Shown here one piece after another: positions 32,560-63,000 of a DNA stretch of 64,000 nucleotides; positions within the stretch are counted from its first letter, which is position 1; every line of letters starts with the position of its first letter. The stretch is from positions 170,817 to 234,816 of the forward strand of contig MKWA01000015.1 of assembly GCA_001899285.1 (NCBI GenBank). Reading direction: 5' to 3'. The notes beneath the pieces are model-generated. The model did no database searches and was not told where the DNA came from. It was given only the letters and a program-made list of their open reading frames with translations. Source of the stretch: Rhizobiales bacterium 64-17 (GTDB lineage: Bacteria; Pseudomonadota; Alphaproteobacteria; Rhizobiales; Xanthobacteraceae). The position numbers were made by a program, and so were the translations under genes.

Positions 32560-34950
32560 TTATGCTGCGGTGTTGGTGATCGGCCGGATCAGCGCAGCGG
32601 CTGACAACGATTTTTCATATTGTTCGGCCGGCGCGTCGCGATAAAGCGTCGTGCGCTGACGCGGCGTGCGGCCGATCGATGCGATGAGTTCTTCCATTGC
32701 GGTCGGCGGCATTTCCTGTCCGTGTGTCGCACCCGCCGAGCGGGTGATGCTCTCGTCCATGAGCGTGCCGCCGGCGTCGTTGGCGCCCGCGCGCAAGCAC
32801 CATTTGACGCCTTCCGGACCCATCTTCACCCACGAGGCCTGGATATTGGTGATGAGCGGATGCAAAGCGAGCCGCGCCACGGCGTGCATCAGGATGGCCT
32901 CGCGGAAGGTCGTGCCGCTGCGCGCGCGGCCGTGCAGATAGATCGGTGTTTCCATCGGCACGAACGGCAGCGGCACCAGTTCTGTGATGCCGCCGGTTTT
33001 CACCTGGAGATCGCGCAGGCGCATCAGGTGGCGTGCCCAATGACGCGGGCGGTCGACATGGCCGTACATGATCGTCGCGGTGGTCTTGAGGCCGACGCGA
33101 TGCGCCGTCCCGACGATGTCGAGCCATTGCTGCGTATTGATCTTGTCCGGGCAGATGATGGCGCGAACCTCGTCGTCGAGAATTTCAGCGGCGGTGCCGG
33201 GCAGGGTGCCGAGTCCGGCTGCCTGCAGCCGTTCGAGCAGCGTCGCGACCGGAATGCCGAGGGTTTCCGCGCCCTGATGTATCTCCAGCGGCGAAAAGGC
33301 ATGAATGTGCATGCCCGGCACGGCGTCCTTGATGGCGCGGCAGATCGAGAGATAAGTCTCGCCGGTATAGTCGGGATGGATGCCGCCCTGCAGGCACACT
33401 TCCGTGGCGCCGCGCTCCCAGGCTTCGGTTGCACGCCGCTGGATTTCCTCCAGACCGAGATTGTAGGGCTTGCCGCGCAGGTTGGCGGCGAGCTTGCCCT
33501 TGGAGAAGGCGCAGAACTTGCAGCGGAAGTAGCAGATGTTGGTGTAGTTGATGTTGCGCGTGACGACATAAGAGACGGTGTCGCCGTTCACGCGAGCGCG
33601 CAATGCATCGGCGGCTTCGCACACGCGCAGGAAATCGGTGCCGCGGGCCGAGAACAGCGTCACCAGATCATCCTCGGAATAATCGCCCGATCGGTCGAAC
33701 AGCGCCTGTAGCCGGTCGGCGACCGGCGGCCGTGTGCGCTCGGCCGGCGGGAGCGGGACGGGCGTGTCGTGACCAGCGCCGGCGATCCAGCCATCTGGCC
33801 GCGCGAAATTGTCCGCGTCGCTCGCGCGCAGCGATGGGGTGCGCAACGCTGGATCGAGCCAGCGGTCCGGTGCGTCGAGATAGGCTGGATAGATCGCGAG
33901 GCGGCCCACCAGCACCTTGCCGGCCTGTGCCGTGCGCTGCTCCAGCATGCGCAAGGCCGGCCATGGCGCTTCCGGATTGACGTGATCCGGTGTCACCGGC
34001 GACACGCCGCCCCAGTCGTTGATGCCGGCGGCGACGATATCGGCCAGCGATCCGCCCGCGAGATTGGGCGGCGCCTGGATATTCATGGTTTCGCCGAACA
34101 GGATGCGGGCGACGGCGATGGTCCACAGATGGTCGGTGGCATCGGGCTCCGGCGCGTTCGCCATGCGGGTGTCCGGCTTGGCGCGGAAATTCTGGATGAT
34201 GATTTCCTGGATATGGCCGTAGCGGCGATGTAGGTCGCGCAGCGCGAGCAAGGATTCAATCCGTTCGCGCCGGGTTTCGCCGATGCCGATCAGGATTCCG
34301 GAGGTGAATGGCACGCGCGCTTCGCCGGCGGCGGCAATGGTGGCAAGCCGCACCGCCGGCGCTTTGTCCGGCGAGCCGAAATGCGGCCCGCCGCGCTGCA
34401 TCAGCCGCTCCGATGCACTCTCCAGCATGATGCCTTGGGAGACCGAGACCTTACGCAGCTTTTCGAGGTCTTCGCGGCTCATCACACCCGGATTGAGATG
34501 CGGCAGCAGGCCGGTTTCCTTGAGCACCAGCTCCGCCATCGCGGCGAGATAATCGAGCGTGGTCACGTAGCCCAGCGCGTCGAGGGCCTCGCGCGCCGCG
34601 CGATAGCGCAGTTCCGGTTTGTCGCCGAGCGTGAACAGCGCTTCGTGGCAACCGGCGGCCGCGCCGGCGCGGGCGATCTTGAGCACTTCCTCCGGTGACA
34701 GATAGGCTGCGCCGACGACCCGCGGCGGCTGCGCGAAGGTGCAGTAGTGGCAGGTGTCCCGGCACAGCTTGGTGAGCGGGATGAACACTTTCTTGGAATA
34801 GGAAACGATCGCGCCATGGCCGCGGTCGCGGATCGCCGAAGCGGCGCGCATCAGCGCCGGCAGGTCGTTGAATTCCGCGAGCGCCAGCGCCTCGTCGTCG
34901 GTCAGATCGGCGTCCGCGAGGCGGTCAGCAAGAGAAAGCAGCATCGTCAT
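32560..34950 (-). CDS. fbiC: FO synthase, fused CofG-CofH radical SAM enzyme (FbiC)
   Basis: A 796-residue fusion of two radical SAM domains that makes the deazaflavin FO, chromophore of coenzyme F420, from tyrosine and 5-amino-6-ribitylaminouracil. The first CxxxCxxC is C63-C67-C70 (CRDTCHYC) in the CofG half; the second is C473-C477-C480 (CYFRCKFC) in the CofH half. The order CofG then CofH matches mycobacterial and other bacterial FbiC. Its start overlaps the cofC stop by four bases. This fusion is a marker for F420 synthesis. Confidence 0.96.
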   Translation of the reverse strand: MTMLLSLADRLADADLTDDEALALAEFNDLPALMRAASAIRDRGHGAIVSYSKKVFIPLTKLCRDTCHYCTFAQPPRVVGAAYLSPEEVLKIARAGAAAGCHEALFTLGDKPELRYRAAREALDALGYVTTLDYLAAMAELVLKETGLLPHLNPGVMSREDLEKLRKVSVSQGIMLESASERLMQRGGPHFGSPDKAPAVRLATIAAAGEARVPFTSGILIGIGETRRERIESLLALRDLHRRYGHIQEIIIQNFRAKPDTRMANAPEPDATDHLWTIAVARILFGETMNIQAPPNLAGGSLADIVAAGINDWGGVSPVTPDHVNPEAPWPALRMLEQRTAQAGKVLVGRLAIYPAYLDAPDRWLDPALRTPSLRASDADNFARPDGWIAGAGHDTPVPLPPAERTRPPVADRLQALFDRSGDYSEDDLVTLFSARGTDFLRVCEAADALRARVNGDTVSYVVTRNINYTNICYFRCKFCAFSKGKLAANLRGKPYNLGLEEIQRRATEAWERGATEVCLQGGIHPDYTGETYLSICRAIKDAVPGMHIHAFSPLEIHQGAETLGIPVATLLERLQAAGLGTLPGTAAEILDDEVRAIICPDKINTQQWLDIVGTAHRVGLKTTATIMYGHVDRPRHWARHLMRLRDLQVKTGGITELVPLPFVPMETPIYLHGRARSGTTFREAILMHAVARLALHPLITNIQASWVKMGPEGVKWCLRAGANDAGGTLMDESITRSAGATHGQEMPPTAMEELIASIGRTPRQRTTLYRDAPAEQYEKSLSAAALIRPITNTAA

Positions 34951-35663
34951 CGGGTCGGGTCCGCTTCGGTGACAAGGTCGCAGGTGCGGGCACGCACGCG
35001 CCCCCAGTGAATGAAGTCGTGGCGGTCGAGAAAAGCTTGTGTCCGCGTCGCCGAACCGAGCCGGGCGAACGCGATCAGATCTTCGAGATGGTCGATGTCG
35101 CGCGCAATGCCGGGCAGCCGCACCACCTGCGGCATGATGCCGTGGTCGCGGGCGGATTTCAGGTGCGGATAGAAACTGTCGTCGCCGAATTTGAGCGGCA
35201 CGGCGGTCGGCGGCGACACCACAACGGTGTTGGAGCCTTTGTCGTCGTGCGACGGCACGATGGTGAAGGACGGGCCGGGCTGATGCAGCGTGATCACCTG
35301 ATCGATTTCGGTTGCCGTCACCAGCGGAATGTCGCCTGGAAGCTGCAGGATCGCGTCGGCGCCCTCCGCCGCCAGCCGGCGTGCGGCGGCGGCCACCACG
35401 CCGGTATGGCCGGAGCGGGCGTCGTCGGTGAAGATTCGTCCGCCGTGGCGCTGCGCCAGCGTTTGCGCCACCGGATCGAGGGTCGCGATAATGAATCCGG
35501 CGAGACCGCGGGCCTGCGACACCGCCGCGACCACATCTTCCAGCATGGTGCGCACCAGCGGCACATGCAGGTGTGGCGGCACACCGCCATTGAGGCGCTG
35601 CTTCGCGCCGGTGACTTCCTTCACCGGGATGACGGCCCAGATGTTGCGTGTAGCTCCCATCAT
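34947..35663 (-). CDS. cofC: 2-phospho-L-lactate guanylyltransferase (CofC/FbiD)
   Basis: A 238-residue CofC-family nucleotidyltransferase. It starts MMGATRNIWAVIPVKEVTGAKQRL, with the signature VIPVKxxxxAKxRL, and has ILQLPGDIPLVTATEID, the probable metal/GTP-binding region. It activates a phosphoacid (2-phospholactate, phosphoenolpyruvate or 3-phosphoglycerate, depending on lineage) with GTP for F420 assembly. Its start lies in a 14-bp tandem duplication shared with the end of cofD. Confidence 0.93.
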   Translation of the reverse strand: MMGATRNIWAVIPVKEVTGAKQRLNGGVPPHLHVPLVRTMLEDVVAAVSQARGLAGFIIATLDPVAQTLAQRHGGRIFTDDARSGHTGVVAAAARRLAAEGADAILQLPGDIPLVTATEIDQVITLHQPGPSFTIVPSHDDKGSNTVVVSPPTAVPLKFGDDSFYPHLKSARDHGIMPQVVRLPGIARDIDHLEDLIAFARLGSATRTQAFLDRHDFIHWGRVRARTCDLVTEADPTR

Positions 35664-35680
35664 GCGGCTCCCATCATGCG
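35653..35680 (-). repeat. 14-bp tandem duplication at the cofD/cofC junction
   Basis: GCTCCCATCATGCG occurs twice head to tail (35653-35666 and 35667-35680). On the minus strand, one copy encodes the CofD tail RMMGA and the other supplies the cofC start MMGA. With a single copy, the cofD and cofC frames would be continuous, because 14 is not a multiple of three. Confidence 0.9.
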
Positions 35681-36679
35681 CCCCTTGCGGCGGGCGGAGG
35701 GCTCTCGCGCCAGCCGGTCGCCGAAGGCGAGCGTCGCGGTTGCGAGCGCGATCTTGTCATCGAGACTGCGCATAAAAACCGTGCGCGCGTCGATCGCGAC
35801 CGGAGCGCGGGGCGTCATGGCGGCATCGCCCGGATCGACGATGAAGCCGTCGATCAGACCGGCAAAATGATCGGCAACGCTCCCCGCCGTGACGGCGATA
35901 CCAAGCTCGCGCATCATCTTCGCGGTCGGCCCCTTGACGGCCTCGCCGCCGATGATCGGCGAGATGGCAATGATCGGTGCCGTGCAGGCGGTCAGCGCCG
36001 CGCGCACGCCCGGCACCGCCAGGATCGGGTCGATGCTGATGAACGGATTCGAGGGGCAGATGATGACGGCGCGCAGGCGCGTATCGCGCAGGAGGCCGAG
36101 AAAATCCGGATGCGGCGCAGCGTCCTCCGCCCCTGCAAACCGGAAACCGGTAACGGCGGGCGCGCATTGCATGCCGACGAAATAGCGCTGGAAGTCGAGC
36201 GGTCCGTTCGCGGTCAAGACCTGCGTGCGGACCGGATCGTCGCTCATCGGCAGGATACGACCGCGCGCCCCCAGGCGGCGCGCGAGATCGGCGGTGATCG
36301 CCGAGAGCGTTTCGCCCGCACGCAGGCGCTGGCTGCGCTCCACATGCAAAGCAAGATCGCGGTCGCCGAGCTTGAACCAGGTCTCGCCGCCGAGCGCGCC
36401 TAGCGTCTCCATGAACGACCAGGTCTCGTCGCGCCGGCCCCAGCCAATCTGCTGGTTGTCGAGATCGCCGAGCACATAAGTGAGCGTGTCGATGTCCGGC
36501 GAGATGCTAAGGCCGAGATGCTCGAAATCGTCGCCAGTGTTGGCAACGACGGTGAGCGCGCCGTCCGGCAACACATGGGCGAGGCCCAGCGCAAGTTTTG
36601 CGCCGCCGATTCCGCCCGAGAGGGCGAGGACGGGACGGTTCTCTTGGCGGGTATTTTGGGATGAGGACAGGGTGGCCAT
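35660..36679 (-). CDS. cofD: 2-phospho-L-lactate transferase (CofD/FbiA)
   Basis: About 339 residues. The N-terminal VLALSGGIGGAKLALGL and NTGDDFEHLGLSISPDIDT are hallmark CofD segments; GWGRRDETW, CPSNPFISIDPI and SPIIGGEAVKGP follow. CofD joins the activated phosphoacid to FO, giving F420-0 or its dehydro form. ATG 36679 follows GAGGAT with good spacing. A GTG at 36694, overlapping the cofE stop, would add five residues. It ends with RMMGAA encoded by the tandem duplication. Confidence 0.95.
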   Translation of the reverse strand: MATLSSSQNTRQENRPVLALSGGIGGAKLALGLAHVLPDGALTVVANTGDDFEHLGLSISPDIDTLTYVLGDLDNQQIGWGRRDETWSFMETLGALGGETWFKLGDRDLALHVERSQRLRAGETLSAITADLARRLGARGRILPMSDDPVRTQVLTANGPLDFQRYFVGMQCAPAVTGFRFAGAEDAAPHPDFLGLLRDTRLRAVIICPSNPFISIDPILAVPGVRAALTACTAPIIAISPIIGGEAVKGPTAKMMRELGIAVTAGSVADHFAGLIDGFIVDPGDAAMTPRAPVAIDARTVFMRSLDDKIALATATLAFGDRLAREPSARRKGRMMGAA

Positions 36680-36690
36680 GGTTTTGATCC

Positions 36691-37461
36691 TCACCGGAAC
36701 AAGTCGTCAGCGGGAGGACGAAGCAATGTCCGTGCCGGAAGATGTTGGGTCTGTACCGGGAATCCTGACAGCAGCACGACCGGGCAGGCTTCGTCGGCCT
36801 GACCCATGACCAACGACGCAGCGGCCGCGATCTCGTCGGCAACGGCGACTTCGCTCACTTCCAGCACCCGTCCGAACAGGTCTGGCCGTCCACGCAAATC
36901 CTCCAGCGCCGGAATGCCGGCGGCGCCGAGCGCGACGCCAGTGGTGCCACGCCGCCACGGCCGGCCGAAGCTGTCATTGATCACGACGCCGAGCGTCTTG
37001 CCGAAATGAGCCTCCAATGTGGCGCGCAACGCGGCGGCCGCGCCGTCCGGATCGCGTGGTAGCAGCAGAACCGTCTCGTTGCCGCCGGCGCGGACATTGG
37101 AGCGGTCGACGCCGGCATTCGCCATCACGAAGCCGTCGCGGTGCTCCACCACCAGGGCGCGCTTGTCGCTGCGCAGGACGTTGACGGATTCGGACAGGAT
37201 CACTTCCACCAGCCGCGGATCGCGGTCGGTGTCGGCGGCGATCGCGCGGGCGCGGGCGGACGGCTCCACCGTCGTCAGATCGACGAAACGGCCCTGCGCC
37301 TTCGACACGACCTTCTGCGCAACGACGATGATGTCGCCGTCGACACAGGTGAGGCCGGCCCGATCCATCGCCGCGGCGATGATCGCGCCGAGGTCGTCAC
37401 CCGGCGCAATCAGCGGGATGCCGGGTATGCCGCTCAAGCTCAGGCGCGGCGGCGCGGCCAC
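36691..37461 (-). CDS. cofE: F420-0:gamma-glutamyl ligase (CofE), single-domain form
   Basis: A 256-residue CofE. It has IPLIAPGDDLGAII near the N-terminus, DGDIIVVAQKVVSKAQGR, and NDSFGRPWRRGTTGVALGAAG, the metal- and GTP-binding signature. It adds the glutamate tail to F420-0. The length matches archaeal CofE; the C-terminal nitroreductase-like domain of mycobacterial FbiB, which reduces dehydro-F420-0, is absent. It starts three bases after the fgd stop, which places it second in the operon. Confidence 0.94.
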   Translation of the reverse strand: MAAPPRLSLSGIPGIPLIAPGDDLGAIIAAAMDRAGLTCVDGDIIVVAQKVVSKAQGRFVDLTTVEPSARARAIAADTDRDPRLVEVILSESVNVLRSDKRALVVEHRDGFVMANAGVDRSNVRAGGNETVLLLPRDPDGAAAALRATLEAHFGKTLGVVINDSFGRPWRRGTTGVALGAAGIPALEDLRGRPDLFGRVLEVSEVAVADEIAAAASLVMGQADEACPVVLLSGFPVQTQHLPARTLLRPPADDLFR

Positions 37462-37464
37462 AGT

Positions 37465-38469
37465 TCAGAGCCCGAGCTTGCGCAGGCGCGGCAGCACCTG
37501 CTCGCCGTAGAGTTTCAGGAACCGCTTCTGGTCCGGCCCTGGTGCGTGGAAGACCAGATGGCGGAAGCCGAGGTCAGTATAGGCTTTGATCCGCTCGACA
37601 TGCTCGTCGGCGTTGTCCGAGACGATCCAGCGCTTGGCGGTACGCTCCACCGGAAGCGCGTCGGCGAGCTTCTCCATCTCGACCGGATCCTCGACCGACA
37701 TCTTCTCCTCGGGAGAAAGCGCCAGCGCGGCCCAATGCTTGGTATCTTCGAGCGCGCGCTGTTTGTCGGTGTCGAACGAGACCTTCATCTCGATCATGCG
37801 GTCGATCGAGTCGTTGGCGCGGCCTGCGGCCTCGAGGCCTGCGGCCACATTCGGCAGCAAGGTCTCCTTGTAAAGCTCCGGCGCCTTGCCGCTGGTGCAG
37901 ATATAGCCTTCGGCGGTTTCGCCGGCGAGCTTCGCCACGGTCGGGCCGGAGGCGGCGAGATAGATCGGCACCGGCTTCGCGGGGCGATCGTAGAGCGTGG
38001 CCTTCTCGGTCTTGTAGTATTTGCCGTCGAAGGTGACGCGCTCTTCCTTCCACAGGCGGCGCATCAGGTCCACCGATTCCATCAGACGGCCGGTGCGTTC
38101 CTTGAAGCCTGGCCATTTGATGCCGAGGGCTGGCACGTCGTTGAGCGATTCACCGCTGCCGAGGCCGAGCACCACGCGCTCCGGAAACATCACACCGAGC
38201 GTCGCGAACGCCTGCGCGACGATCGACGGGTGATAGCGGAAGGTCGGCGTCATCACGCTGGTGCCCATGATGATCCGCTTGGTGCGCGCGCCGAGCGCGC
38301 CGAGCCACGGGATCGATGCTGGCGCGTGGCCATTGGTGTGCTTCCACGGCTGGAAGTGATCGCTGATGAAAACCGAATCGAAGCCGACATCTTCGGCATA
38401 GACCGAGAAGTCGAGCAGTTCGCTTGGCCCGAACTGCTCCGCCGAGGCTTTGTATCCGATCTTCAACAC
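37465..38469 (-). CDS. fgd: F420-dependent glucose-6-phosphate dehydrogenase family protein (FGD)
   Basis: A 334-residue luciferase-like TIM barrel that matches mycobacterial FGD along its length. LKIGYKASAEQF, SDHFQPWKHTNGHAP (D37, H38, W42), GTSVMTPTFRYHP, GLGSGESLN, YICTSGK and EMEKLADALP...AKRWIV correspond to the F420- and glucose-6-phosphate-binding segments, including the glutamate of the active site and the basic residues for phosphate. It would oxidise glucose 6-phosphate to 6-phosphogluconolactone and form F420H2. The start is GTG 38469, preceded by GGGGAGAA; family homology begins there. It is first in the F420 operon, which is unusual and implies cofactor and user are made together. 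Another sugar phosphate is possible as substrate. Confidence 0.88.
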   Translation of the reverse strand: MLKIGYKASAEQFGPSELLDFSVYAEDVGFDSVFISDHFQPWKHTNGHAPASIPWLGALGARTKRIIMGTSVMTPTFRYHPSIVAQAFATLGVMFPERVVLGLGSGESLNDVPALGIKWPGFKERTGRLMESVDLMRRLWKEERVTFDGKYYKTEKATLYDRPAKPVPIYLAASGPTVAKLAGETAEGYICTSGKAPELYKETLLPNVAAGLEAAGRANDSIDRMIEMKVSFDTDKQRALEDTKHWAALALSPEEKMSVEDPVEMEKLADALPVERTAKRWIVSDNADEHVERIKAYTDLGFRHLVFHAPGPDQKRFLKLYGEQVLPRLRKLGL

Positions 38470-38700
38470 GTCGTTCTCCCCGATAGTTGGACCCGCTGCT
38501 GCGGGGGCGTTCAGCGGTGCGATCCGTGATGCATATCGGTGTCGCTGCTCCCGCGTGCGACGCGCCAAATGCGATCTGTCTCGCTGCCGCACGGTTTCCG
38601 CGCGACGCCGTGGAAAAGTCTAGTGCAGATGCGCCGGGGATAGCAATATCGGAAAATTCAAAATTCTTACATTTTGACAATTCTGTCTTTTCCGCGCAAA
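38470..38700. promoter_or_regulatory. Divergent promoter region between the F420 operon and iclR
   Basis: 231 bases. An AT-rich patch at 38650-38700 contains the inverted repeat CAAAAT (38659-38664)/ATTTTG (38671-38676) and a TTGACA (38674-38679). The inverted repeat is a plausible operator for the adjacent IclR protein. A short motif CAAAATTCT (38659-38667) resembles CAAAATTAT (23258-23266) in front of the paralogous IclR gene. The rest (38470-38640) shows only the ribosome site of fgd. Confidence 0.45.
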
Positions 38701-39501
38701 ATGAAAAACATGGCTAAAACCTCACGGATTGCCAATCGCCCCAGCCGGCTGGTGATGATCCTGCAACTGTTCGACCGGGACCGCCCGGTCTGGACGGTGG
38801 AGCAGATGGCGCGCGCGCTGGGGTTGTCGTCGAGCACGATCTACCGCCATGTCCGCAACCTCGTGAAAGGTGGGTTTCTCGATCCGGTTAGCGGCGCGGC
38901 CTACGCGCTCGGGCCGGCATTCGTGCGGTTCGACCAGATTTTGCGGCACACCGATCCGTTGAGCCAGATTGCCGCACCGGTCATGCAGGATCTGCTGAAA
39001 CACACGAGCGAAGCGTGCGTCGTGATCGTGTGCCGCAAGTTCAAGGATTGCGTGATGTGCGTGCAGGAGGCGCGCGGCAGCAAATTCCGCGGCCAGATCG
39101 GTTACGAGCGCGGCGTGACGATGCCGCTGTTCATCGGCGCGACGTCGAAAGTGATTCTGGCGCAGTTGCCGGACCGCCAGCTCAAGTCCGTCTATCTCGA
39201 CAACGGCGAGACAATCCATCGCGTGCTGCGCGCCAGCAACTGGCATGAGTTTCGCGCGCAGATCAAAGACATTCGTGAGGCCGGATACGCGCTGACGCGC
39301 GGCGAGGTCGCCGCGAACCGGGTTGGTCTCGCGGTGCCGATCGCGCGAAACGGCAAAGCCTTCGCCAGCATCAGTCTCGTCGGCACGGGCAAGATGTGGG
39401 ACGACAAGAAGAAGGTCGATGCCTTCATCCGTCATGTGCGCGCCGCCGCGGCGCAGATTTCGCGCGCGCTGGCCCGGCAGTCGCCGGTGGTCTCGCGCTG
39501 A
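38701..39501 (+). CDS. IclR family transcriptional regulator (paralogue of the one at 22427)
   Basis: About 266 residues. The helix-turn-helix region is VEQMARALGLSSSTIYRHVRNL, and the effector domain holds RKFKDCVMCVQEARG and RGVTMPLFIGATSKVIL, blocks nearly identical to the IclR protein at 22427-23194. Starts at ATG 38701 or 38710 are both possible; I see no strong ribosome site. It is divergent from the F420 operon and upstream of a hydrolase and an LLM oxidoreductase, so it probably regulates these and perhaps F420 synthesis. Confidence 0.9.
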   Translation: MKNMAKTSRIANRPSRLVMILQLFDRDRPVWTVEQMARALGLSSSTIYRHVRNLVKGGFLDPVSGAAYALGPAFVRFDQILRHTDPLSQIAAPVMQDLLKHTSEACVVIVCRKFKDCVMCVQEARGSKFRGQIGYERGVTMPLFIGATSKVILAQLPDRQLKSVYLDNGETIHRVLRASNWHEFRAQIKDIREAGYALTRGEVAANRVGLAVPIARNGKAFASISLVGTGKMWDDKKKVDAFIRHVRAAAAQISRALARQSPVVSR

Positions 39502-39536
39502 GTTGACAACAGAAGAATAGAGGCAAGGGGGTTCCG

Positions 39537-40448
39537 GTGAGGCAGGAGACGGTTCATTTCTACAGCGAGGGCTGCAAGCTGCACGGCGTGCTGCGCTTGC
39601 CGGACCAGGGCGAAGGCCCGTGGCCGGCGATCGTGCAGGGACCGGGCTGGCTCGGCCTCCACGACGCCAAGCTCTACGAGCGTTATCACAAGAGCTTCAC
39701 CGCGGCCGGTTACGCCGTGCTGGTGTTCGACTATCGCGGCTTCGGCGACAGCGAGGGCGAGAAGGGCCTGGTGATGCCGCAGCGGCAGGCGGAGGATATC
39801 CGCAATGCCATCACCTATATGCAGACCCGCAGCGAGGTCGATCCGAACCGGATCGGCCTGTTCGGCTCCGGCGGCACCGGCGGTGCCGTGCCGATCTATG
39901 TGGCGGCGGTCGACCAGCGCGTGAAATGCGTGGTCAGCAACTACGCGTTCGCCAGCGGCCGTGATTGGCTGCGCAGCATGCGCCGCGAATACGAATGGAT
40001 CGCGTTCCAGCAGCGCCTCGACGCCGACCGCAAGAAGCGCGTGCTTGACGGCCAGAGCGAGATGGTCAATCCGCGCCAGGACATCATGATCGTGACGCCG
40101 GAGCGCGGCCAAACGGCCGTGAAAAAGGACGTCGACGCGCGCATCCCGGAAACCGTGCCGCTGCGTTGCGCCGATGCGATCATGGAATTCACCCCGGAGG
40201 ATTTCGTTGCGGCGATCGCGCCGCGCGCGATCCTGTTCATTTCAACCGAGGGCGATGCCGTGACGCCGGAAGAGCAAACCTTCCGGCTTTACGAGAAGGC
40301 CGGTCAGCCGAAGAAGCTGATCCTGCAAAAGGAGACGTCACACTACAAAGCCTACGATCAGTATTTCGACATTGTCACACCGCAGATCGTCGGTTGGTAC
40401 GACACCTATCTGCGTTACGACCGCGTCGAGTCTCGCGAAGACAGATAA
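39537..40448 (+). CDS. Alpha/beta-hydrolase-fold protein (dienelactone hydrolase-like)
   Basis: A 303-residue protein. It has an alpha/beta-hydrolase strand pattern (VLVFDYRGFGDSEGEKG), the region of the nucleophile elbow IGLFGSGGTGGAVP (residues 106-119) and a C-terminal SHYKAYD that may hold the catalytic histidine. The elbow reads G110-S-G-G-T-G-G rather than a clean GxSxG, so the nucleophile is uncertain. The start is GTG 39537, 35 bases after iclR, with GGGGG upstream. The operon-like context with an LLM oxidoreductase suggests joint breakdown of one compound. Confidence 0.8.
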   Translation: MRQETVHFYSEGCKLHGVLRLPDQGEGPWPAIVQGPGWLGLHDAKLYERYHKSFTAAGYAVLVFDYRGFGDSEGEKGLVMPQRQAEDIRNAITYMQTRSEVDPNRIGLFGSGGTGGAVPIYVAAVDQRVKCVVSNYAFASGRDWLRSMRREYEWIAFQQRLDADRKKRVLDGQSEMVNPRQDIMIVTPERGQTAVKKDVDARIPETVPLRCADAIMEFTPEDFVAAIAPRAILFISTEGDAVTPEEQTFRLYEKAGQPKKLILQKETSHYKAYDQYFDIVTPQIVGWYDTYLRYDRVESREDR

Positions 40449-40553
40449 ACGGATGCGCGGCGGCCATGCCGCGTGCCTGTTTCGCTGAATCGATCAAGAG
40501 CAACCCGTCGGCCGCCGAGGCGCGGCCCGACCCCTCAGGAGGAAAGACCCGTT

Positions 40554-41537
40554 ATGGCTACCCAGTATGGATTGCTGCTGCCGCATTTCGGCCCGAACTG
40601 CAGCAAGGACAAGCTGCTCGATGGTGCGCGCAAGGCCGAGGCTCTCGGCTTCGACTCGGTGTTCGTGCGTGACCATCTCGTGTTCCACCCGCATGGCATG
40701 GAAGGCACCGACAACACCTTCATCGACCCGTTCGTCACGCTGTCGGCGATCGGCGCGGTGACCTCGAAGATCCAGCTCGGCTTCGGTTCGCTGATCCCGC
40801 ATCGTCACCCGTTGCTGCTCGCGCTGATGCTCAACTCGCTGCAGTATATGGCCGGCGACCGGCTGATCCTCAGCCTCGGCATCGGCAACTTCCAGGTGGA
40901 GTTCGATGCGCTCGGCATGACCGACTGGCCGCGCGACGAGGTGGCCAAGGAGCAGGTGGAGATTTTGCGCCGGTCCTGGACCAACGACCATTTCTCGTTC
41001 GAGGGCAAATACTACAAGAACGCCGATGTCGGCTTTAAGCCGCGCGCGACCAAGCCGCATCCGATCTGGTACGCCGGTGGCACGCCGGCCTCGGTGCGCC
41101 GGGCACTCGACTTCTGCGATGGCTGGTTCCCCGGCCGCATCACGCTGCCGACCTACAAGAAGCGGGTGGCGAAGTTGCGTGAGGATGCCAAGGCGGCGGG
41201 CCGTCCGCGCCTGCTGGAAGGCTGCATCCCGATCACCAGCATCGACGTCGATCGTGAGACCGCGCTGAAGAAGGTGAGCGTGGACGGTCTGATCAAGAAC
41301 GCCAATTCGCAGAAGTTCTGGGTCAAGCCGGAATCCGGCTCGTTCCAGACCTGGCAGGATCTTGAGGGCTCGTTCATGGTCGGCAGCCCTGATGATGTCG
41401 TAAAGGATGTCGAGAAGTATCTCGAGGTCGGCATCGACCACATCGTGTTCGACCTGCGGTTCCGCTTTGACGAATGGGATCGTTGTATGGAATTGCTGGG
41501 CAAGGAAGTGTTGCCGAAGGTACGCAAGCACGCGTGA
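40554..41537 (+). CDS. LLM class (luciferase-like) oxidoreductase, possibly F420-dependent
   Basis: A 327-residue bacterial-luciferase-fold protein. YGLLLPHFGPNCSKDKLLDGARKAE, FDSVFVRDHLVFHPHG, LGFGSLIPHRHPLLLA and ILSLGIGNFQVEFDALGM are family segments. LLM proteins use either FMN or F420; proximity to the F420 operon makes F420 plausible, but the sequence does not settle this. A strong AGGAGGAAA precedes ATG 40554, which decides the start over a GTG at 40473. Together with the hydrolase gene it forms a small catabolic pair under the IclR gene. Confidence 0.88.
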   Translation: MATQYGLLLPHFGPNCSKDKLLDGARKAEALGFDSVFVRDHLVFHPHGMEGTDNTFIDPFVTLSAIGAVTSKIQLGFGSLIPHRHPLLLALMLNSLQYMAGDRLILSLGIGNFQVEFDALGMTDWPRDEVAKEQVEILRRSWTNDHFSFEGKYYKNADVGFKPRATKPHPIWYAGGTPASVRRALDFCDGWFPGRITLPTYKKRVAKLREDAKAAGRPRLLEGCIPITSIDVDRETALKKVSVDGLIKNANSQKFWVKPESGSFQTWQDLEGSFMVGSPDDVVKDVEKYLEVGIDHIVFDLRFRFDEWDRCMELLGKEVLPKVRKHA

Positions 41538-41558
41538 TAGTGCACGCGTGACGACTTT

Positions 41559-41596
41559 GCGGCCCCGCACGCCGGTGACGGCGGGCGCGGGGCCGC
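41559..41596 (+). terminator. GC-rich stem-loop between the LLM gene and tal-pgi
   Basis: GCGGCCCCGC (41559-41568) pairs perfectly with GCGGGGCCGC (41587-41596). An inner CGCC/GGCG pair (41570-41573, 41580-41583) leaves a small loop. It lies 22 bases after the LLM stop and ends 16 bases before the tal-pgi start. No T-run follows, so it may be a factor-dependent or leaky terminator or an mRNA-stabilising element. Confidence 0.6.
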
Positions 41597-41612
41597 GAGC
41601 AGACAGGACAGG

Positions 41613-44468
41613 ATGGCCATGAATCCCTTGGTGAAGCTGCAACAGCACGGACAGTCGGTCTGGCTGGACTTTCTGGACAGGGGTTTCACGGCCAAGGGTG
41701 GTCTCAAGCGGCTCGTCGAGGAAGACGGCGTGCGCGGGGTCACATCCAACCCCGCGATTTTCGAGAAGGCGGTCGGCGGGTCGGGGGAATATGACGAGGG
41801 CGTGCGGCACCTGCTGGCCGCAGGCGACCGTTCCGGCACCGATCTGTTCGAGGCGCTGGCGGTTGAGGATATCCAGAATGCCGCGGCGGTGCTGCGCCCG
41901 GTCTATGACCAGACTAAGGGGGCGGATGGGTTCGTCAGCCTCGAAGTCTCGCCCTATCTGGCGATGGATGCCGAGGGCACGATCGCCGAAGCGCGCCGGT
42001 TGTGGGCGCAGTGCGGCCGGCCCAATGTGATGATCAAGGTGCCGGCGACAAAGCCGGGGTTGATCGCGATCCGCACGCTGCTCGGCGACGGCATCAACAT
42101 CAATATCACGCTGCTGTTCGCGCAGGCGGTCTATCGCGAGGTGGTGGAAGCCTATCTCGCCGGGCTTGAGGTTTTCGCCGCGAAGGGGGGCGATATCGGT
42201 CGCGTCGCCAGCGTCGCGAGCTTCTTCGTCAGCCGTATCGACGCCGTGGTCGATGTGCAGCTCGACAAGGCCATCGCTGCGGCCGGCTCCGCTCAGGCCA
42301 AACAGGATTTGGCGGCGCTGCAGGGCAAGACGGCGATTGCCAATGCCAAGCTCGCCTATCGCGACTATCAGCGCCTGTTCTCCGGCGCGCGCTGGGACAA
42401 GCTCAAGGCGAAGGGCGCGCGGCCGCAGCGGCTGCTGTGGGCCTCGACCGGCACCAAGAACAAGGCTTACAGCGACGTCTTGTATGTGGCGGAGCTGATC
42501 GGCCCCGACACGGTCAACACCATGCCGACGCCGACGCTGGAAGCGTTCCGCGATCACGGCGTGGTGGCCGATACGCTGACGCAGAATGTCGATGAGGCGG
42601 AGCGCGTGCTCGCGTCGGTGGCGAAGGCCGGCATCTCGCTCGACGATATCACCGCCAAGCTGGAGCAGGACGGCGTGCGGCTGTTCGCGGATGCCGCCGA
42701 CAGCCTGTTCGGCGCGGTGGCGCGCAAGCGCGCCAAGGTGCTGGGCGATGCCGTCGACGCGCAAACGCTGACCTTGCCGGCCGAGCTTGCCGACAAGCTG
42801 AAGCAGCGCACCGAAGCGTGGCGTGCGCAGGGGTTGGTGCGCCGGTTGTGGGCGCGCGATGCGTCGGTCTGGACCGGCAAGGACGAGGCGCGCTGGCTCG
42901 GCTGGCTCGACAGCATCGGGCAGGCGCAGCAGCAACGCGATCTCTATCGCCGTCTTGCCGAGGATGTGCGCAGCGCGGGTTTCACCCATGCTGTGCTGCT
43001 CGGCATGGGCGGATCGAGCCTCGGGCCGGAGGTGCTGGCGCGCACCTTCGTGCCGCAACCGGGCTTTCCGAAGCTGCTGACGCTCGACTCCACGGACCCG
43101 GAACAGATCGCCGTTGTTGCCAAGGCGGTCGATCTCGGCAAGGCGCTGTTCATCGTCTCCAGCAAGTCCGGCTCCACCATCGAGCCGAACATGCTGCTCG
43201 CCTATTTCTTTGCCGCTGTTGCCGGCACGCTCGGAAAATCCAAGGCCGGTCTGCATTTTATTGCCGTCACCGATCCGAACTCGCAACTGGAGGCGGTCGC
43301 GAAGCGCGACGGTTTCCGCCAGATCGTCCACGGCGAACCGACCATCGGCGGCCGTTATTCGGTGCTGTCGCCGTTCGGTCTGGTGCCGGCGGCGGTGGCC
43401 GGGTTCGATGTCGAGAAACTGTTGCAGGCGGCAGCGACCATGCTGCGCAGTTGCGGCGCTGATGTACCGCCGGCGGACAATCCGGCGGTGCAACTCGGCC
43501 TCGCGCTCGGCGAAGCGGCGCTGGCCGGCCGCGACAAGGTGACGATCGCCGCGCCGCCGACGCTCGGCAGCTTCGGGGCCTGGGCGGAGCAGTTGATCGC
43601 CGAGTCGACCGGCAAGAACGGCAAGGCGCTGATCCCGCTGGACGGCGAGCCGCTGGCGGCGCCTGCCGCCTATGGCAAGGATCGCTTCTTCATCAATCTG
43701 CGGCTGCGCGATGCGTCCGGTGCGCCCGACGCCGCGCTGGCGGCGCTGACGCAGGCGGGGCATCCGCTGGCGGATATCGCCTTGCGACAGCCGGAGCAGA
43801 TTGCGCAGGAATTCGTCCGGTTCGAGATCGCGACGGCGGTTGCCGGCGCGGTGCTCGGCATCAATCCGTTCGATCAGCCTGACGTCGAGGCGAGCAAGGT
43901 CAAGGCACGGGCGTTGACCACGGCGCTGGAGCGCGACGGCAAACTGCCGGAGCAGGCGCCGGTGTTCGCCGCTGACGGCATCGCGCTCTACACCGATGCG
44001 GCCAATGCGGCGGCGCTCCGCGCGGCCGGGGCCGGTGACACGGTGGCAAACTGGCTCAAGGCGCACTTCGGTCGCATCAAGCCCAGCGATTATGTGGCAC
44101 TCCTCGCTTATATCGCGCAGAGCGCGGAGACGGAGAACCGGTTGCAAAAGTTGCGGACGGCACTGCGCGACCGCCATCATGTGGCGACCTGCGTCGGCTT
44201 CGGGCCGCGTTTCCTGCATTCGACCGGACAGGCTTACAAGGGCGGGCCGAACAGCGGCGTGTTCCTCGAAATCACCGCCGACGATCCGAACGACCTCGCC
44301 ATTCCCGGCGCGACGATCAGCTTCGGCCAATTGAAAGCGGCGCAAGCAGGCGGCGATTTCGAGGTGCTGCTGGAGCGTGGCCGCCGCGCACTGCGCGTGC
44401 ATCTGCAGGGCGGCGCGGCCAAAGGGCTGTCGGCGCTCGAAGCCGCTTTGACGCGCGCATTAAGTTAG
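41613..44468 (+). CDS. tal-pgi: Bifunctional transaldolase/phosphoglucose isomerase
   Basis: A 951-residue fusion. The N-terminal transaldolase half has GVTSNPAIFEKAV and the Schiff-base lysine segment MIKVPATKPG. The C-terminal half, from about residue 390, has the phosphoglucose isomerase motifs GMGGSSLGPEV and SKSGSTIEPN. Such fusions occur in Alphaproteobacteria and some other bacteria and link the non-oxidative pentose phosphate branch with glucose-6-phosphate/fructose-6-phosphate exchange. gnd and pgl follow within 10 bases each, forming an operon. Confidence 0.95.
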   Translation: MAMNPLVKLQQHGQSVWLDFLDRGFTAKGGLKRLVEEDGVRGVTSNPAIFEKAVGGSGEYDEGVRHLLAAGDRSGTDLFEALAVEDIQNAAAVLRPVYDQTKGADGFVSLEVSPYLAMDAEGTIAEARRLWAQCGRPNVMIKVPATKPGLIAIRTLLGDGININITLLFAQAVYREVVEAYLAGLEVFAAKGGDIGRVASVASFFVSRIDAVVDVQLDKAIAAAGSAQAKQDLAALQGKTAIANAKLAYRDYQRLFSGARWDKLKAKGARPQRLLWASTGTKNKAYSDVLYVAELIGPDTVNTMPTPTLEAFRDHGVVADTLTQNVDEAERVLASVAKAGISLDDITAKLEQDGVRLFADAADSLFGAVARKRAKVLGDAVDAQTLTLPAELADKLKQRTEAWRAQGLVRRLWARDASVWTGKDEARWLGWLDSIGQAQQQRDLYRRLAEDVRSAGFTHAVLLGMGGSSLGPEVLARTFVPQPGFPKLLTLDSTDPEQIAVVAKAVDLGKALFIVSSKSGSTIEPNMLLAYFFAAVAGTLGKSKAGLHFIAVTDPNSQLEAVAKRDGFRQIVHGEPTIGGRYSVLSPFGLVPAAVAGFDVEKLLQAAATMLRSCGADVPPADNPAVQLGLALGEAALAGRDKVTIAAPPTLGSFGAWAEQLIAESTGKNGKALIPLDGEPLAAPAAYGKDRFFINLRLRDASGAPDAALAALTQAGHPLADIALRQPEQIAQEFVRFEIATAVAGAVLGINPFDQPDVEASKVKARALTTALERDGKLPEQAPVFAADGIALYTDAANAAALRAAGAGDTVANWLKAHFGRIKPSDYVALLAYIAQSAETENRLQKLRTALRDRHHVATCVGFGPRFLHSTGQAYKGGPNSGVFLEITADDPNDLAIPGATISFGQLKAAQAGGDFEVLLERGRRALRVHLQGGAAKGLSALEAALTRALS

Positions 44469-44477
44469 GAGAGCACG

Positions 44478-45467
44478 ATGCAGCTTGGGATGGTCGGTCT
44501 CGGCCGGATGGGCGCCAACATCGTCCGCCGTCTGCTGCGTCATGGTCACACGGCGGTCGCCTTCGACCGCGATCGCAAGGCGGTTGATGCCGTCGCCAGC
44601 GAGGGCGCGGCCGCCGCCGCGGATCTTGCCGATCTCGTACGTCAGCTTGCGAAGCCGCGCGCCGTCTGGGTGATGCTGCCCGCGGGCGAAGCCACCGAGA
44701 CGGCGATCGAGACGCTCGCGGGCCTGCTCGACGCCGGCGACATCATCATCGATGGCGGCAATACGTTCTGGCAGGACGATATCCGCCGCGCCGCCGCGTT
44801 GAAGCAGCGCGGGCTCAATTATATCGACGTCGGCACCAGCGGTGGCGTCTGGGGCTTGGAGCGCGGTTATTGCATGATGATCGGCGGCAACGAGAAAGTC
44901 GTCGCGGGCCTCGATCCGATTTTCCGCGCGCTGGCGCCGGGGCTCGGCACCATTCCGCGCACGGGCGGGGACGGCGCGCCTGCGGCGGCGGGTGAACTCG
45001 GCTATCACCGTGTCGGTCCGAACGGCGCCGGCCATTTCGTCAAGATGATCCACAACGGCATCGAATACGGAATGATGCAGGCTTTTGCCGAGGGCTTCGA
45101 CATCCTGCGCAACGCCGCGAGCAAAGGGTTGCCGGAAGAACACCGCCTCGATCTCGATGTGGCGGCCATCGCCGAGACGTGGCGGCGCGGCAGTGTCGTC
45201 ACCTCGTGGCTGCTCGACCTGTCGGCGGCTGCACTGGCGCAAGACCCGAAGCTCGATGCCTATTCCGGCCACGTCGAGGATTCCGGCGAAGGTCGCTGGA
45301 CCCTGATGGCAGCGATCGACGAGGCGGTGCCGGCGCATGTGCTGTCGGCGGCGCTCTATGCGCGCTTCCGCTCGCGCCAGGAGGCGAGCTTTGCCGACAA
45401 GATGCTGTCGGCGATGCGTAAGGGCTTCGGCGGCCATGTCGAAGCGCCGCGCCCGGCCAAAAAGTAA
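44478..45467 (+). CDS. gnd: 6-phosphogluconate dehydrogenase, short form
   Basis: A 329-residue enzyme of the short (GntZ/YqeC-like) class, compared with about 470 for the classical enzyme. [13 protein letters not shown] is the nucleotide-binding motif, [10 protein letters not shown] and [20 protein letters not shown] are substrate-binding, and [22 protein letters not shown] carries the catalytic lysine. It oxidatively decarboxylates 6-phosphogluconate to ribulose 5-phosphate. Short forms often prefer NAD. It lies between tal-pgi and pgl, where zwf would often be expected. Confidence 0.93.
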
Positions 45468-45475
45468 GTGATCGC

Positions 45476-46231
45476 ATGATACAAGCGCCTGTCTCCGCCG
45501 TACGCCGTTCGGCCATTGTCGTTCCCGATCTGGCGGCTGTGGTCGAGGCGGCGACAAAGCGCATCGTCGCGCGGATTGCGCAAGCGCCGGGGCGAATTGC
45601 GATCTGTCTCACCGGCGGCTCGACGCCGAGGCCGGTGTATCGGCGGCTCGCGGAGGAGCCTTATCGCAGCACGGTGCCGTGGGAGCGGATCCACTGGTTC
45701 TGGGGCGATGACCGGTTCGTGCCGCTCGAGGATGAACGCAGCAATGCCGGCATGGCTTGCGCCGCGTTCCTCGATCATCTGCCGATTCCGGCCGACAACA
45801 TCCATGTGATGCCGACGCAACTGCGCGATCCGCATGAGGCCGCGCGGCATTACGAAGACGACTTGAAGTCATTTTACGGATCGTCGCGCCTCGATCCGCG
45901 CAAGCCGTTGTTCGACATGGTGCTGATGGGGCTCGGCTCCGACGGCCACACCGCGTCGCTGTTTCCGCACGGCGAGGGTCTCGACGAACAGGAGCGCTGG
46001 GTTGTCGGCGTCAATGAAGCCAAGCTCGCGCCGTTCGTGCCGCGCGTGACGTTGACCTTTCCGACGCTGGCGTCGACCCGCGAGATGCTGTTCCTGATGA
46101 CCGGCGCAGAGAAGCGGCCAATGGTTGCGCGCGTGTTCGCCGGCGACGATCTGCCGGCGACACATGCTTATAGCGACGGCGCGCAGGTCTGGCTGATGGA
46201 CGAGGCGGCGGCGCCGGACAGCGTTCGTTAG
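45476..46231 (+). CDS. pgl: 6-phosphogluconolactonase (Pgl/DevB)
   Basis: A 251-residue lactonase. LTGGSTPRPVYRRL, WFWGDDRFVPLEDERSN and LMGLGSDGHTASLFPH are the family signatures. It hydrolyses 6-phosphogluconolactone, the product of glucose-6-phosphate dehydrogenation. It starts eight bases after gnd. The 3' end overlaps the convergent nadX-like gene by four bases, with no obvious terminator. Confidence 0.95.
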   Translation: MIQAPVSAVRRSAIVVPDLAAVVEAATKRIVARIAQAPGRIAICLTGGSTPRPVYRRLAEEPYRSTVPWERIHWFWGDDRFVPLEDERSNAGMACAAFLDHLPIPADNIHVMPTQLRDPHEAARHYEDDLKSFYGSSRLDPRKPLFDMVLMGLGSDGHTASLFPHGEGLDEQERWVVGVNEAKLAPFVPRVTLTFPTLASTREMLFLMTGAEKRPMVARVFAGDDLPATHAYSDGAQVWLMDEAAAPDSVR

Positions 46232-54487: not shown

Positions 54488-57400
54488 TTAGTGGTCGGTT
54501 TGCAGGGCGAGCGCGTTGGCAGCTTCGTTGCGCAGCGCCGGGGCGGGATCCTGCATGATCCGGTCGCCCTCGCGGCGGCTGGCATAGACCGGCCGGAGTG
54601 GTGCGGCGGGCGCGAAGCCGGCCGGTGGTGCCGCGGCTGGCGCGAGCGCGCGGTCATAGTCGCGGGCCTCGCGGAGCACGCTGGCGCGGTCGTTGACCAC
54701 ATTGCCGAAGTTCGGATTGAGCTTGATCGCCTGATTCATGTCGGCCGAGGCGCGGGCGTATTGCCGGGCGTCGTAATAGGCGATGCCGCGATTATAAAGC
54801 GCCATGGCGTAGTTCGGGTTGAGCGACAGCGCCTTGTCGTAATCCTGGATCGCCTTGTCGTGCTGGCCCATGCTGCGGAAGGTGAAGCCGCGGTTGTTGT
54901 AGACTGTGGCGTTCCTCGGGTCGCGCTTCAGCGATTCCGTGAAGTCGGCAATCGCGCGCTCGTAGTCGCGCTTGGCATCATAGGCGAGACCGCGGCTGTT
55001 ATAAGCAGGCGCATAGGCCGACGCGAGCTTGATCGCCTCGTCGAAAGCGGCGATGGCCCCGTCGAAGTCGCGCTTCTCCAGCAGGATGTCGCCACGCGTG
55101 GCATGCGCTGCCGCATAGGTTGGATTGAGCTTGAGCGCGGCGGTGACGTCCGCCAGCGCGCGCTCCGCATCGCCCTTCTGCCGCCAGGCGAGGCCACGGT
55201 TGTTCAGTGCGACGGCGTTCTTCGGATCGAGCTTGATCGCATGATCGAGATCGGCGATGGCGCGATCGATGTCACCGCGCAGACCGTGGGTCGCGCCGCG
55301 ATCGGCAAAAGCCGATGCAAGCTTGCCGTCGAGCTTGAGCGCCTGATCGAGATCGGCGAGGGCATGGTCGAGATCGCCCTTGTTGCGATAGGACACGCCA
55401 CGGTTGGCCCATGCCGTCGCGTTGCGGGCATCGAGCTTGAGAGCCTGCGTGAAATCGGCGATGGCGCGGTCGTAGTCACCCTTGTCGCGAGAAGCGAGGC
55501 CACGCATCACATAGGCATCGTCGGAATTCGGGGTTAGGCCGATGGCCTGGCCGAATTCGGCGATGGCTTTGTCGTAATCGCGCTTCTCGTAAAAGCTGAT
55601 GCCGCGCTGGACCAACGCCGGGGCGAATTTTGAATCGAGCTGGAACGCCTGATTCCAGTCGGCCAGCGCACGCTCGATCTCGCCTTTCTGCTCATAGGCG
55701 ACGCCACGATTGTAGAATGCGCGCGCGTTCTTCGGCTCCAGCTTGATGACCTGATCGAGATCGGCGATGGCGCGCGCGGCATCGCGCGACGCGCCGTAAG
55801 CGAGTGCGCGATCGTAGAGCGCGCCGGCGTGATCGGGCTGCAATGCCAACACCTTGTCGAAGTCGGCGATGCCTTTGGCGAAATCCCGCTTGTCAAGGAA
55901 AGCGCGGCCGCGCGCATAGATGGCGGACGGATCGTTCGGGTTCAGCCGGATCGCCAGATCGAAGTTCTGGATCGCGCGGTCTGCACTGCCTTTCTCGCGC
56001 CAGACCTGGCCGCGATTGAAATAGCCGAGCGCGCTATTGGGGTCGAGCTTGAGGCTCTGATCGAGATCGGCAACCGCACGATCGAAATCGCCCTTCATGG
56101 CATAGGCGATGGCGCGGCCGTTGAACGCCGACGCATGGGTCGGACCGAGCTTGAGATCCTGCGTATAGTCGGCGATCGCAGCGTCGAAGTTGCGCTTCCC
56201 GGCCAGCGCCTGCGCACGGTTATGATAGGAGTAGATATCGGAGCCGTTGAGTTTCAGCGCCTTCTCGTAGTCGGCCGTGGCGCGGTCGAGGTCGCCCTTG
56301 TCGAGATAGGAGTTGCCGCGGTTGTAGAAGCCGAGCGCATAGGAGGCGTTCAGCTTCAGCGCCTGATCGAAATCGGCGAGCGCCCGGTCGGCCTGACCCT
56401 TGGCGGCAAAGGCGGCGCCGCGATTGTTGTAGGCGGCCGGATATTTGCCGTTGATCTTCAGAGCCTGCGAGAAATCGGCGATGGCCGGATCGATCTCGCC
56501 CTTGGCGGCGAGGACGATGCCGCGATCATTGAGTGCCGCCGCGTTCTGCGCATCCAGTGTCGCCGCCTGCGTCAGATCGGCGAGCGCCCGCTCGAGGTCG
56601 CCCTGGCTGGCATAAGCGTTGCCGCGGTGCTGGAACGCCAGCGCCATCTTGCCGTCGAGCTTGGTCGCTTCGTTGAAATCGGCGATCGCGCGCGGGTAGT
56701 CGCGCTTCTCGGCGAAGGCGATGCCACGGTTATAGTAAGCCTGCGCGTTCTTCGGTTCGATCTTCGTCACCTGATCGAAATCGGCGACGGCGCGGTCATA
56801 ATACTGCTTCTCGTAGTAGGCGATGCCGCGGTCGAAATAGGCGGAAGCTTCCTTCGGGTTGAGCTTGATCGCCTCGCCGAAGTTCTGCACCGCCTTGTCG
56901 AAATCCTGCTTGCGATAATAGAGCGCGCCGCGCTCGTAGAACGCTGCCGCGTAGCCCGGATTGATCTTGATCGCCTGATTGAGATCGGCGAGCGCCTTGT
57001 CGATGTCGCCCTTCGATGCCAGCGCGCTGGCGCGGTCGGCGAAGGCTAGCGCGAAATTGGCGCTGACGCGCAGCGGCTGTGCGGTGTCGTTGAGCACGCG
57101 GTCATAGCCGCGCTGGTTGCGCGCATCGGTGCGGCCAGCGACGGCGTAGTTGGGGTTGACCTTGGCCAACCGGTCGAAGTCGGCGATGGCGTGGTTGTAG
57201 TCTTTTTTCTCAAAATAGACGATGCCGCGATCGTGCAGGGCAAAGGTGTCCTGCGCGTTCAGCTTGATCGCCTGATCGAAGTCGGCGATGGCACGGTCAT
57301 ACTCGCGCTTGTCGGAATAGGCATTGGCGCGGTTGTAGAACGCCGTCGCGTAGCCCGGATTGAGCTTCGCCGCCTGGGTGAAATCGGCAATGGCCTTGTC

Positions 57401-60709: not shown

Positions 60710-60854
60710 CGCCACCGATCGAGAACCTGGCAAGGGTGCCTGTCCGTCCGGCGATTAATCTAATGCGATGTGTTCTACGGGAAATGCGCGGATCAATTTA
60801 ACACTAACGCCCGCGCGACGCGGTTAACCGGTTAACGCGGATTGTTGCGCCGGC

Positions 60855-62549: not shown

Positions 62550-62974
62550 GGCTGCGGCACCGATTCGAGACCGACCAGCGCGATCTTCAGATAACCCGCG
62601 CTGCGCAGATCGTTCATCAGGGTCATCAACTCGCCGTAAGGCACCGCGCGGTCGGCACGCAGGAACAGTCGCTGCTCGCGGTCGCCGTTTGTCGCCTGTG
62701 CGAGCGTGCTTGCCAGCGCCGCGCGCGGCACGGTCTGATCGTTGCCGAGCATCAGGCTGAGATCGGATTTCAGCGTCAGATAGATCGGCTTGTCCGGGCG
62801 CTGCTGCTGCTGCGCGTTGGACGAGGGGAGATCGACGGCAATATCGACGGTCGCCAGTGGCGCGGCGATCATGAAAATGATCAGCAGCACCAGGATGACG
62901 TCGATGAACGGGGTGACGTTGATCTCGTGCACTTCTGCCAGATCGTCGTCGCCGTGGTCGAGACGCGCACTCAT
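62546..62974 (-). CDS. exbD: Biopolymer transport protein ExbD
   Basis: A 142-residue ExbD/TolR protein. EINVTPFIDVILVLLIIFM contains the conserved membrane aspartate that carries protons, followed by the periplasmic domain (LFLRADRAVPYGELMTLM). It works with ExbB and TonB. It lies 26 bases after exbB and is coupled to tonB. A TolR role is possible by sequence, but the neighbour is tonB, not tolA. Confidence 0.95.
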   Translation of the reverse strand: MSARLDHGDDDLAEVHEINVTPFIDVILVLLIIFMIAAPLATVDIAVDLPSSNAQQQQRPDKPIYLTLKSDLSLMLGNDQTVPRAALASTLAQATNGDREQRLFLRADRAVPYGELMTLMNDLRSAGYLKIALVGLESVPQP

Positions 62975-63000
62975 GTCAGATCACTCGATACTCGACAAAG

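Follow-up and report, generated by a model that had tools for sequence, protein, structure and literature searches.

The 64,000-nucleotide stretch of DNA analyzed here (the window; contig MKWA01000015.1 of Rhizobiales bacterium 64-17, positions 170,817 to 234,816) carries fgd, a gene for a predicted F420-dependent glucose-6-phosphate dehydrogenase (FGD), close to genes of the oxidative pentose phosphate pathway. On the minus strand, fgd heads the run fgd-cofE-cofD-cofC-cofGH (38592 to 32560), in which every gene scored over its NCBIfam equivalog cutoff, and on the plus strand a run from 38674 to 46231 encodes an IclR regulator, an alpha/beta hydrolase, a luciferase-like (LLM) oxidoreductase, a fused transaldolase/glucose-6-phosphate isomerase (tal-pgi), a 6-phosphogluconate dehydrogenase (gnd), and a 6-phosphogluconolactonase (pgl). 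The gap between fgd and tal-pgi was 3.0 kb when measured from the start of the fgd open reading frame (ORF) and 3.1 kb from its likely start, and the spacing of 8 bases between gnd and pgl left no room for a remnant of zwf, the gene of the glucose-6-phosphate dehydrogenase Zwf, between them. A sequence-only reading had described this arrangement as an FGD-like gene at the head of an F420 operon and, about 3.1 kb away, tal-pgi, gnd, and pgl in one group without zwf, and the coordinates and family models confirmed it (Table 1). That reading had also pointed to the full genome and to the phosphate-binding residues of mycobacterial FGD as the places to look, and both answers agreed with it: no zwf was found in the source genome with models of two Pfam domains, and all three residues were retained.

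The window protein was 56% identical to FGD1 of M. tuberculosis. The phosphate-pocket residues of FGD1, given as Lys198, Lys259, and Arg283 in an excerpt of PMC5352752, corresponded to K236, K297, and R321 and were conserved in all 89 rows of the FGD alignment, as were D78, H79, W83, and E148 of the window protein. The predicted structure (mean predicted local distance difference test score 77.8, with values below 50 at residues 1-41, 80-91, and 149-158) supported the fold, not the pocket. In the family sample of 149 genomes, which was searched by profile for fgd, zwf, and pgl, TIGR03554 matched in 120 genomes at E<=0.001, 9 of them over the cutoff and 111 only below it. A loose luciferase-family match was ruled out for the window protein, which passed the equivalog cutoff and retained the pocket. 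The gene probably starts at a GTG at 38469, 3' of GGGGAG, and would then span approximately 37465-38469. The protein shares sequence family, fold, and active-site residues with mycobacterial and rhodococcal FGD1 (Fgd, EC 1.1.98.2), which an excerpt of PMC4518329 describes as an isozyme beside an NADP enzyme; unlike in those bacteria, no Zwf was found here, and fgd stood in one run with cof genes.

The source genome (4.63 Mb in 26 contigs, completeness 100, contamination 0.62) yielded no match to G6PD_C at E<=0.001 and none to G6PD_N at E<=10 in searches that covered Zwf family models only and that gave matches in 9 of 14 control genomes. Of the classical oxidative pentose phosphate pathway, Pgl and Gnd were present over cutoff and Zwf was not found. 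Locus L039, in a metagenome-assembled genome (MAG) of Pseudolabrys that is close kin of the source genome, was the best named FGD match, and its genome gave no zwf match either. Edd (TIGR01196), the mark of the Entner-Doudoroff pathway, stayed below cutoff in the source genome, with three matches of which the best reached 232 against 708.25 bits (a cutoff passed in 2 of the 14 controls), and the pathway was not recognized on this basis. Gluconokinase TIGR01313 was likewise not over cutoff, in a search that did not extend to FGGY-type gluconate kinases. With neither zwf nor TIGR01313, FGD was the sole recognized route to 6-phosphogluconate, FGGY-type kinases and other glucose-6-phosphate dehydrogenases lying outside the searches. 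Fno/NpdG (TIGR01915) reached 24.7 against 149.8 bits at best, a cutoff that 3 of the 14 controls exceeded (divergent forms may escape the model), so that an Fno-based shuttle from F420H2 to NADPH was not recognized and FGD was the only one of the two enzymes left to reduce F420.

In related Alphaproteobacteria, tal-pgi, gnd, zwf, and pgl lie on one strand, as seen in the congener G127 (L119) and in L120, L123, L126, and L128; the window has the same order and the same fused Tal-Pgi, but without zwf. Because these relatives carry zwf between gnd and pgl, zwf is the gene absent from the window operon. The spacing between zwf and pgl was 47 bases in L119, 24 bases in L126, and 0.9-1.8 kb in L120, L123, and L128. 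Among the best 80 of at least 578 FGD loci, L039 matched the window at approximately 94% DNA identity over 27425-48578 (in two pieces) with the same gene order. In quick trees, Tal-Pgi of the window grouped with that of another genus (L126, 63%) and not with the congener (62%), and Pgl did likewise, which suggests that the operon may have arrived from outside. The gene order would therefore fit either a loss of zwf in place or such an arrival, and in view of these trees a deletion of zwf in place was not upheld as an established event.

The gene that appeared informative was pgl, which without zwf mostly accompanied fgd. Over the 149 family genomes, fgd, zwf, and pgl were over cutoff in 9, 88, and 88, respectively. 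Where zwf was present (n=88), pgl was over cutoff in 85, matched weakly in 1, and was missing in 2; where neither zwf nor fgd was present (n=58), pgl was over cutoff in 1 (G132), missing in 54, and weakly matched in 3 (G014, G017, and G037), which stand as counter-cases. Three genomes had fgd and no zwf, two of them with pgl over cutoff (the source genome and G134) and the third, G068, which is 66% complete, without it. In zwf-less genomes, pgl thus occurred in 2/3 with fgd and 1/58 without (Fisher p 0.005, with few fgd-positive cases and kinship ignored). That Pgl nearly always tracked Zwf, or else FGD, fits an enzyme with one substrate. The G134 locus (L035) has fgd and gnd-pgl side by side in divergent orientation; in G080, which belongs to the same genus, the operon includes zwf (L120) and FGD did not reach the cutoff. 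The use of gnd as a diagnostic gene was dropped, as it was over cutoff in 8 of the 58 genomes without zwf and fgd, four of them congeners. In G132 (L127; completeness 90, contamination 6), gnd and pgl are adjacent on a short contig with no zwf between them, and neither zwf nor FGD was over cutoff in the genome; this pattern may reflect either a fragmented genome or a further glucose-6-phosphate dehydrogenase of another kind.

The named FGD loci were the best 80 of at least 578, and flanks were fetched for these 80. Fifty were picked for whole-genome search and 49 were searched (L054 not included), and 30 were omitted, 12 of them for a title or tree label of Actinomycetota, Chloroflexota, or Thermomicrobiota; the remaining 18 included 15 on contigs shorter than 12 kb. 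At least three genomes are common to both samples, the FGDs of L081, L072, and L075 being the same as those of G084, G068, and G075, and the tests of gene content and neighborhood are therefore not fully independent. Many named genomes are MAGs, with taxon names taken from the records and in some cases doubtful; gene absence in them is weak evidence, and physical linkage is by comparison less affected by their incompleteness than are absence counts.

Among the 49 named genomes, zwf was absent in 21 and pgl was over cutoff in 27. All six genomes with pgl and without zwf (L039, L047, L068, L093, L100, and L118) carried their single pgl within 10 kb of fgd, adjacent to it or one gene off in all but L039, whereas only 1 of the 21 genomes with both zwf and pgl had pgl in the flanks around fgd (Fisher p 2e-5, kinship ignored). 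In 18 of these 21, pgl lay within approximately 5 kb of zwf, the exceptions being G167, G176, and G177. The one linked case, L078, is a counter-case, with pgl linked to fgd although the genome has two zwf genes. Genome G075 (L075) has a zwf-linked pgl and a second pgl (L125, 8856-9521) approximately 11 kb from fgd, as if there were one Pgl per dehydrogenase.

Based on these findings, we consider it probable that this Pseudolabrys-like bacterium feeds its oxidative pentose phosphate pathway through FGD, which takes the place of Zwf. This conclusion builds on gene content and order, the failure to find zwf, the pocket residues, and the association of pgl with fgd; the activity, the flux, and the cofactor of Gnd are inferred. 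Pgi, acting on fructose 6-phosphate, or else a kinase would supply glucose 6-phosphate; FGD would oxidize it with F420, giving 6-phosphogluconolactone and F420H2, Pgl would open the lactone, and Gnd would release ribulose 5-phosphate, CO2, and probably NADH, while Tal-Pgi would help carbon back to glucose 6-phosphate. The earlier proposal that FGD replaces or backs up Zwf gains support from the genome comparison, in which pgl accompanied zwf and, in the genomes that had pgl but no zwf, fgd in most cases. Its corollary that central carbon flow would produce F420H2 also stands as a prediction, with the correction that Gnd looks NAD-type, in which case the pathway may yield both F420H2 and NADH. 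The second strand of the window Gnd is closed by FDRD, which we take to be the pattern expected of an NAD enzyme, the NAD-dependent model TIGR00872 was over cutoff, and related solved structures include one named NAD(+)-dependent Gnd2; by these sequence features, the enzyme is probably NAD-type, although the higher-scoring model PRK09599 bears the name NADP-dependent.

Several observations weigh against FGD as the entry enzyme. The genome samples are small, and their members are related. The zwf searches used Zwf family models only, the second family genome with fgd and pgl and without zwf (G134) is only 85% complete, and 6 of the 9 FGD-positive family genomes have zwf as well. Five of the six other congeners (G034, G070, G091, G110, and G142) lacked zwf, pgl, and FGD over cutoff, which indicates that the oxidative branch is dispensable in the genus; gnd was over cutoff in four of these five, and the sequence surrounding it that was retrieved gave no match to tal-pgi, zwf, or pgl. 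The link between fgd and pgl is not general, because 15 of the 21 named genomes with fgd and without zwf had no TIGR01198 pgl, 8 of them labelled Acetobacteraceae or Roseomonadaceae in the records or the tree. Since TIGR01198 pgl was also missing in 7 of the 28 named genomes with zwf, a different lactonase or spontaneous hydrolysis would likely serve in some of the pgl-less genomes. Caldovatus aquaticus (L050) and Siccirubricoccus deserti (L070), isolates according to their record titles, have FGD, with no zwf and no TIGR01198 pgl found.

An alternative is that FGD only charges F420 for side reactions, such as detoxification or biosynthesis, at low flux, with Pgl and Gnd as relics or in the service of gluconate. 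The position of fgd would agree with this, as it adjoins cofE in 9 of 9 family loci regardless of zwf state (window included; cofD was not seen in L037), and so would the 15 named genomes that manage without pgl and the 8 family genomes that keep gnd without zwf and fgd. We nevertheless regard it as unlikely: we know of no use of Pgl without 6-phosphogluconolactone, the gene was in the family sample lost with zwf nearly always unless fgd was present, distant lineages have pgl next to fgd, and no gluconokinase of the TIGR01313 type was over cutoff (the FGGY type being outside the search). Because charging of F420 and entry into the pathway are the same reaction, this alternative differs from FGD as the entry enzyme mainly in flux.

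We consider it quite improbable that a different sugar phosphate, a free sugar, or an alcohol is the preferred substrate of the FGD-like enzyme, a view suggested by the varied substrates of related F420 enzymes such as Adf and Fsd (the latter from an excerpt of PMC8498797) and by a Thermomicrobium enzyme that was solved with glucose though titled glucose-6-phosphate dehydrogenase. The limitation of the searches to Zwf models leaves room for another dehydrogenase, archaeal Azf-like or otherwise NAD(P)-dependent, to make the lactone with FGD being incidental, and a short-chain glucose-6-phosphate dehydrogenase in Haloferax (title of PMC8506132) and the pgl of G132 without zwf or FGD, though in a fragmented genome, could be read in the same way. 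Such an enzyme would leave unexplained why pgl lies near fgd in 6 of 6 named genomes with pgl and without zwf, and we give the idea very little credence.

The gene runs linking fgd to the pathway varied: pgl-fgd-gnd in L068, cofE-cofD-cofC-cofGH-gnd-pgl-fgd in L093, cofC-cofGH-fgd-cofE-cofD-gnd-pgl in L078, fgd-cofD-pgl with gnd on the opposite strand in L118, and pgl-fgd in L047 and L100; fgd, gnd, and pgl were adjacent or in a single run in L035, L068, L078, and L093. On the FGD tree (89 rows), six changes are required to account for the linkage to pgl, and well-supported branches force no fewer than three of them; because changes can be gains or losses, the tree alone is no proof of several gains. 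A short Gnd occurs in the window, L035, and L093, and a long one bearing an NRT motif in L068, L078, and L118; the linked Pgl fell into two groups that are 31-38% alike (window, L039, L035, and L118 vs L047, L068, L078, L093, and L100). These differing partners speak for separate assembly. The FGDs of the window and L035 are sisters, 87% alike, and because Pgl (45%) and Gnd (70%) are far less alike, the two sets were probably assembled separately, or one partner was exchanged. Tentatively, and at slightly less than an even chance, F420-dependent modules (fgd with pgl, often gnd, and sometimes all cof genes in the run) formed several times in Proteobacteria that had lost zwf and, with NAD-type Gnd as seems to be the case here, would give F420H2 and NADH and no NADPH. 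If this is true, an oxidative branch with an NAD-type Gnd no longer does its best-known job.

Fgd has been noted in predicted alphaproteobacterial F420 producers, in addition to Fno (Ney et al. 2017, as cited in an excerpt of PMC8498797). The window genome shares Fgd with these predicted producers and differs in having no Fno over cutoff, no zwf found, and fgd near tal-pgi, gnd, and pgl. The sequence-only reading knew of no described proteobacterial case, a point to be corrected in that alphaproteobacterial FGD had already been predicted; no description of FGD as the sole glucose-6-phosphate dehydrogenase, linked to pgl and gnd or with fgd in place of zwf, was found for Proteobacteria in searches of open-licence PMC papers. 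According to the same excerpt of PMC8498797, experimental work on F420-reducing dehydrogenases had by 2021 been confined to Actinobacteria, and the role of F420 in other bacteria was open. Structures released since then (9hav, 9haw, and 9hax) are titled F420-dependent glucose-6-phosphate dehydrogenase and come from Thermomicrobium; no structure from a proteobacterium was seen. If FGD is the only glucose-6-phosphate dehydrogenase here, F420 belongs to central carbon metabolism in such bacteria. For annotation, a genome without zwf may still have an oxidative pathway, and pgl without zwf is a pointer to fgd.

The F420-producer set (cofC, cofD, cofE, cofG, and cofH) was complete and over cutoff in one gene group. 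The IclR-family regulator, which is divergent from fgd, is a candidate regulator of both gene groups. A regulator adjoins fgd both in the window (IclR) and in L118 (GntR, 9331-9999), and expression of fgd may accordingly respond to the supply of sugar or acid. The LLM oxidoreductase is a candidate user of F420H2 or FMNH2; as for other F420H2 users, PF04075 matched nothing in the source genome, nor in any of the 14 control genomes.

Table 1. Genes of the fgd and tal-pgi groups in the window, with model scores in bits against the cutoff where one applies
Gene	Product	Position	Strand	Model and score
cofGH	fused FO synthase	32560-34950	-	PRK09234, 1153.5 vs 1018
cofC	guanylyltransferase	34947-35663	-	TIGR03552, 117.2 vs 105
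cofD	2-phospho-L-lactate transferase	35660-36694	-	TIGR01819, 270.4 vs 257.45
cofE	F420-0:glutamate ligase	36691-37461	-	TIGR01916, 281.5 vs 180.65
fgd	FGD	37465-38592 (ORF)	-	TIGR03554, 469.7 vs 420
	IclR-family regulator	38674-39501	+	PF01614, PF09339
	alpha/beta hydrolase, between regulator and LLM gene	39537-40448	+	PF02129 and other hydrolase models
	LLM-family oxidoreductase	40473-41537	+	PF00296, 155
tal-pgi	fused transaldolase/glucose-6-phosphate isomerase	41613-44468	+	PRK09533, 1488.2 vs 712
gnd	short 6-phosphogluconate dehydrogenase	44478-45467	+	TIGR00872, 383.6 vs 297.2
pgl	6-phosphogluconolactonase	45476-46231	+	TIGR01198, 194.9 vs 124.45

Elsewhere in the window, the minus strand at 54488-60733 encodes a protein of 2081 residues, most of it covered by matches to TPR repeat models, and ExbB- and ExbD-like genes lie nearby (62546-63891).

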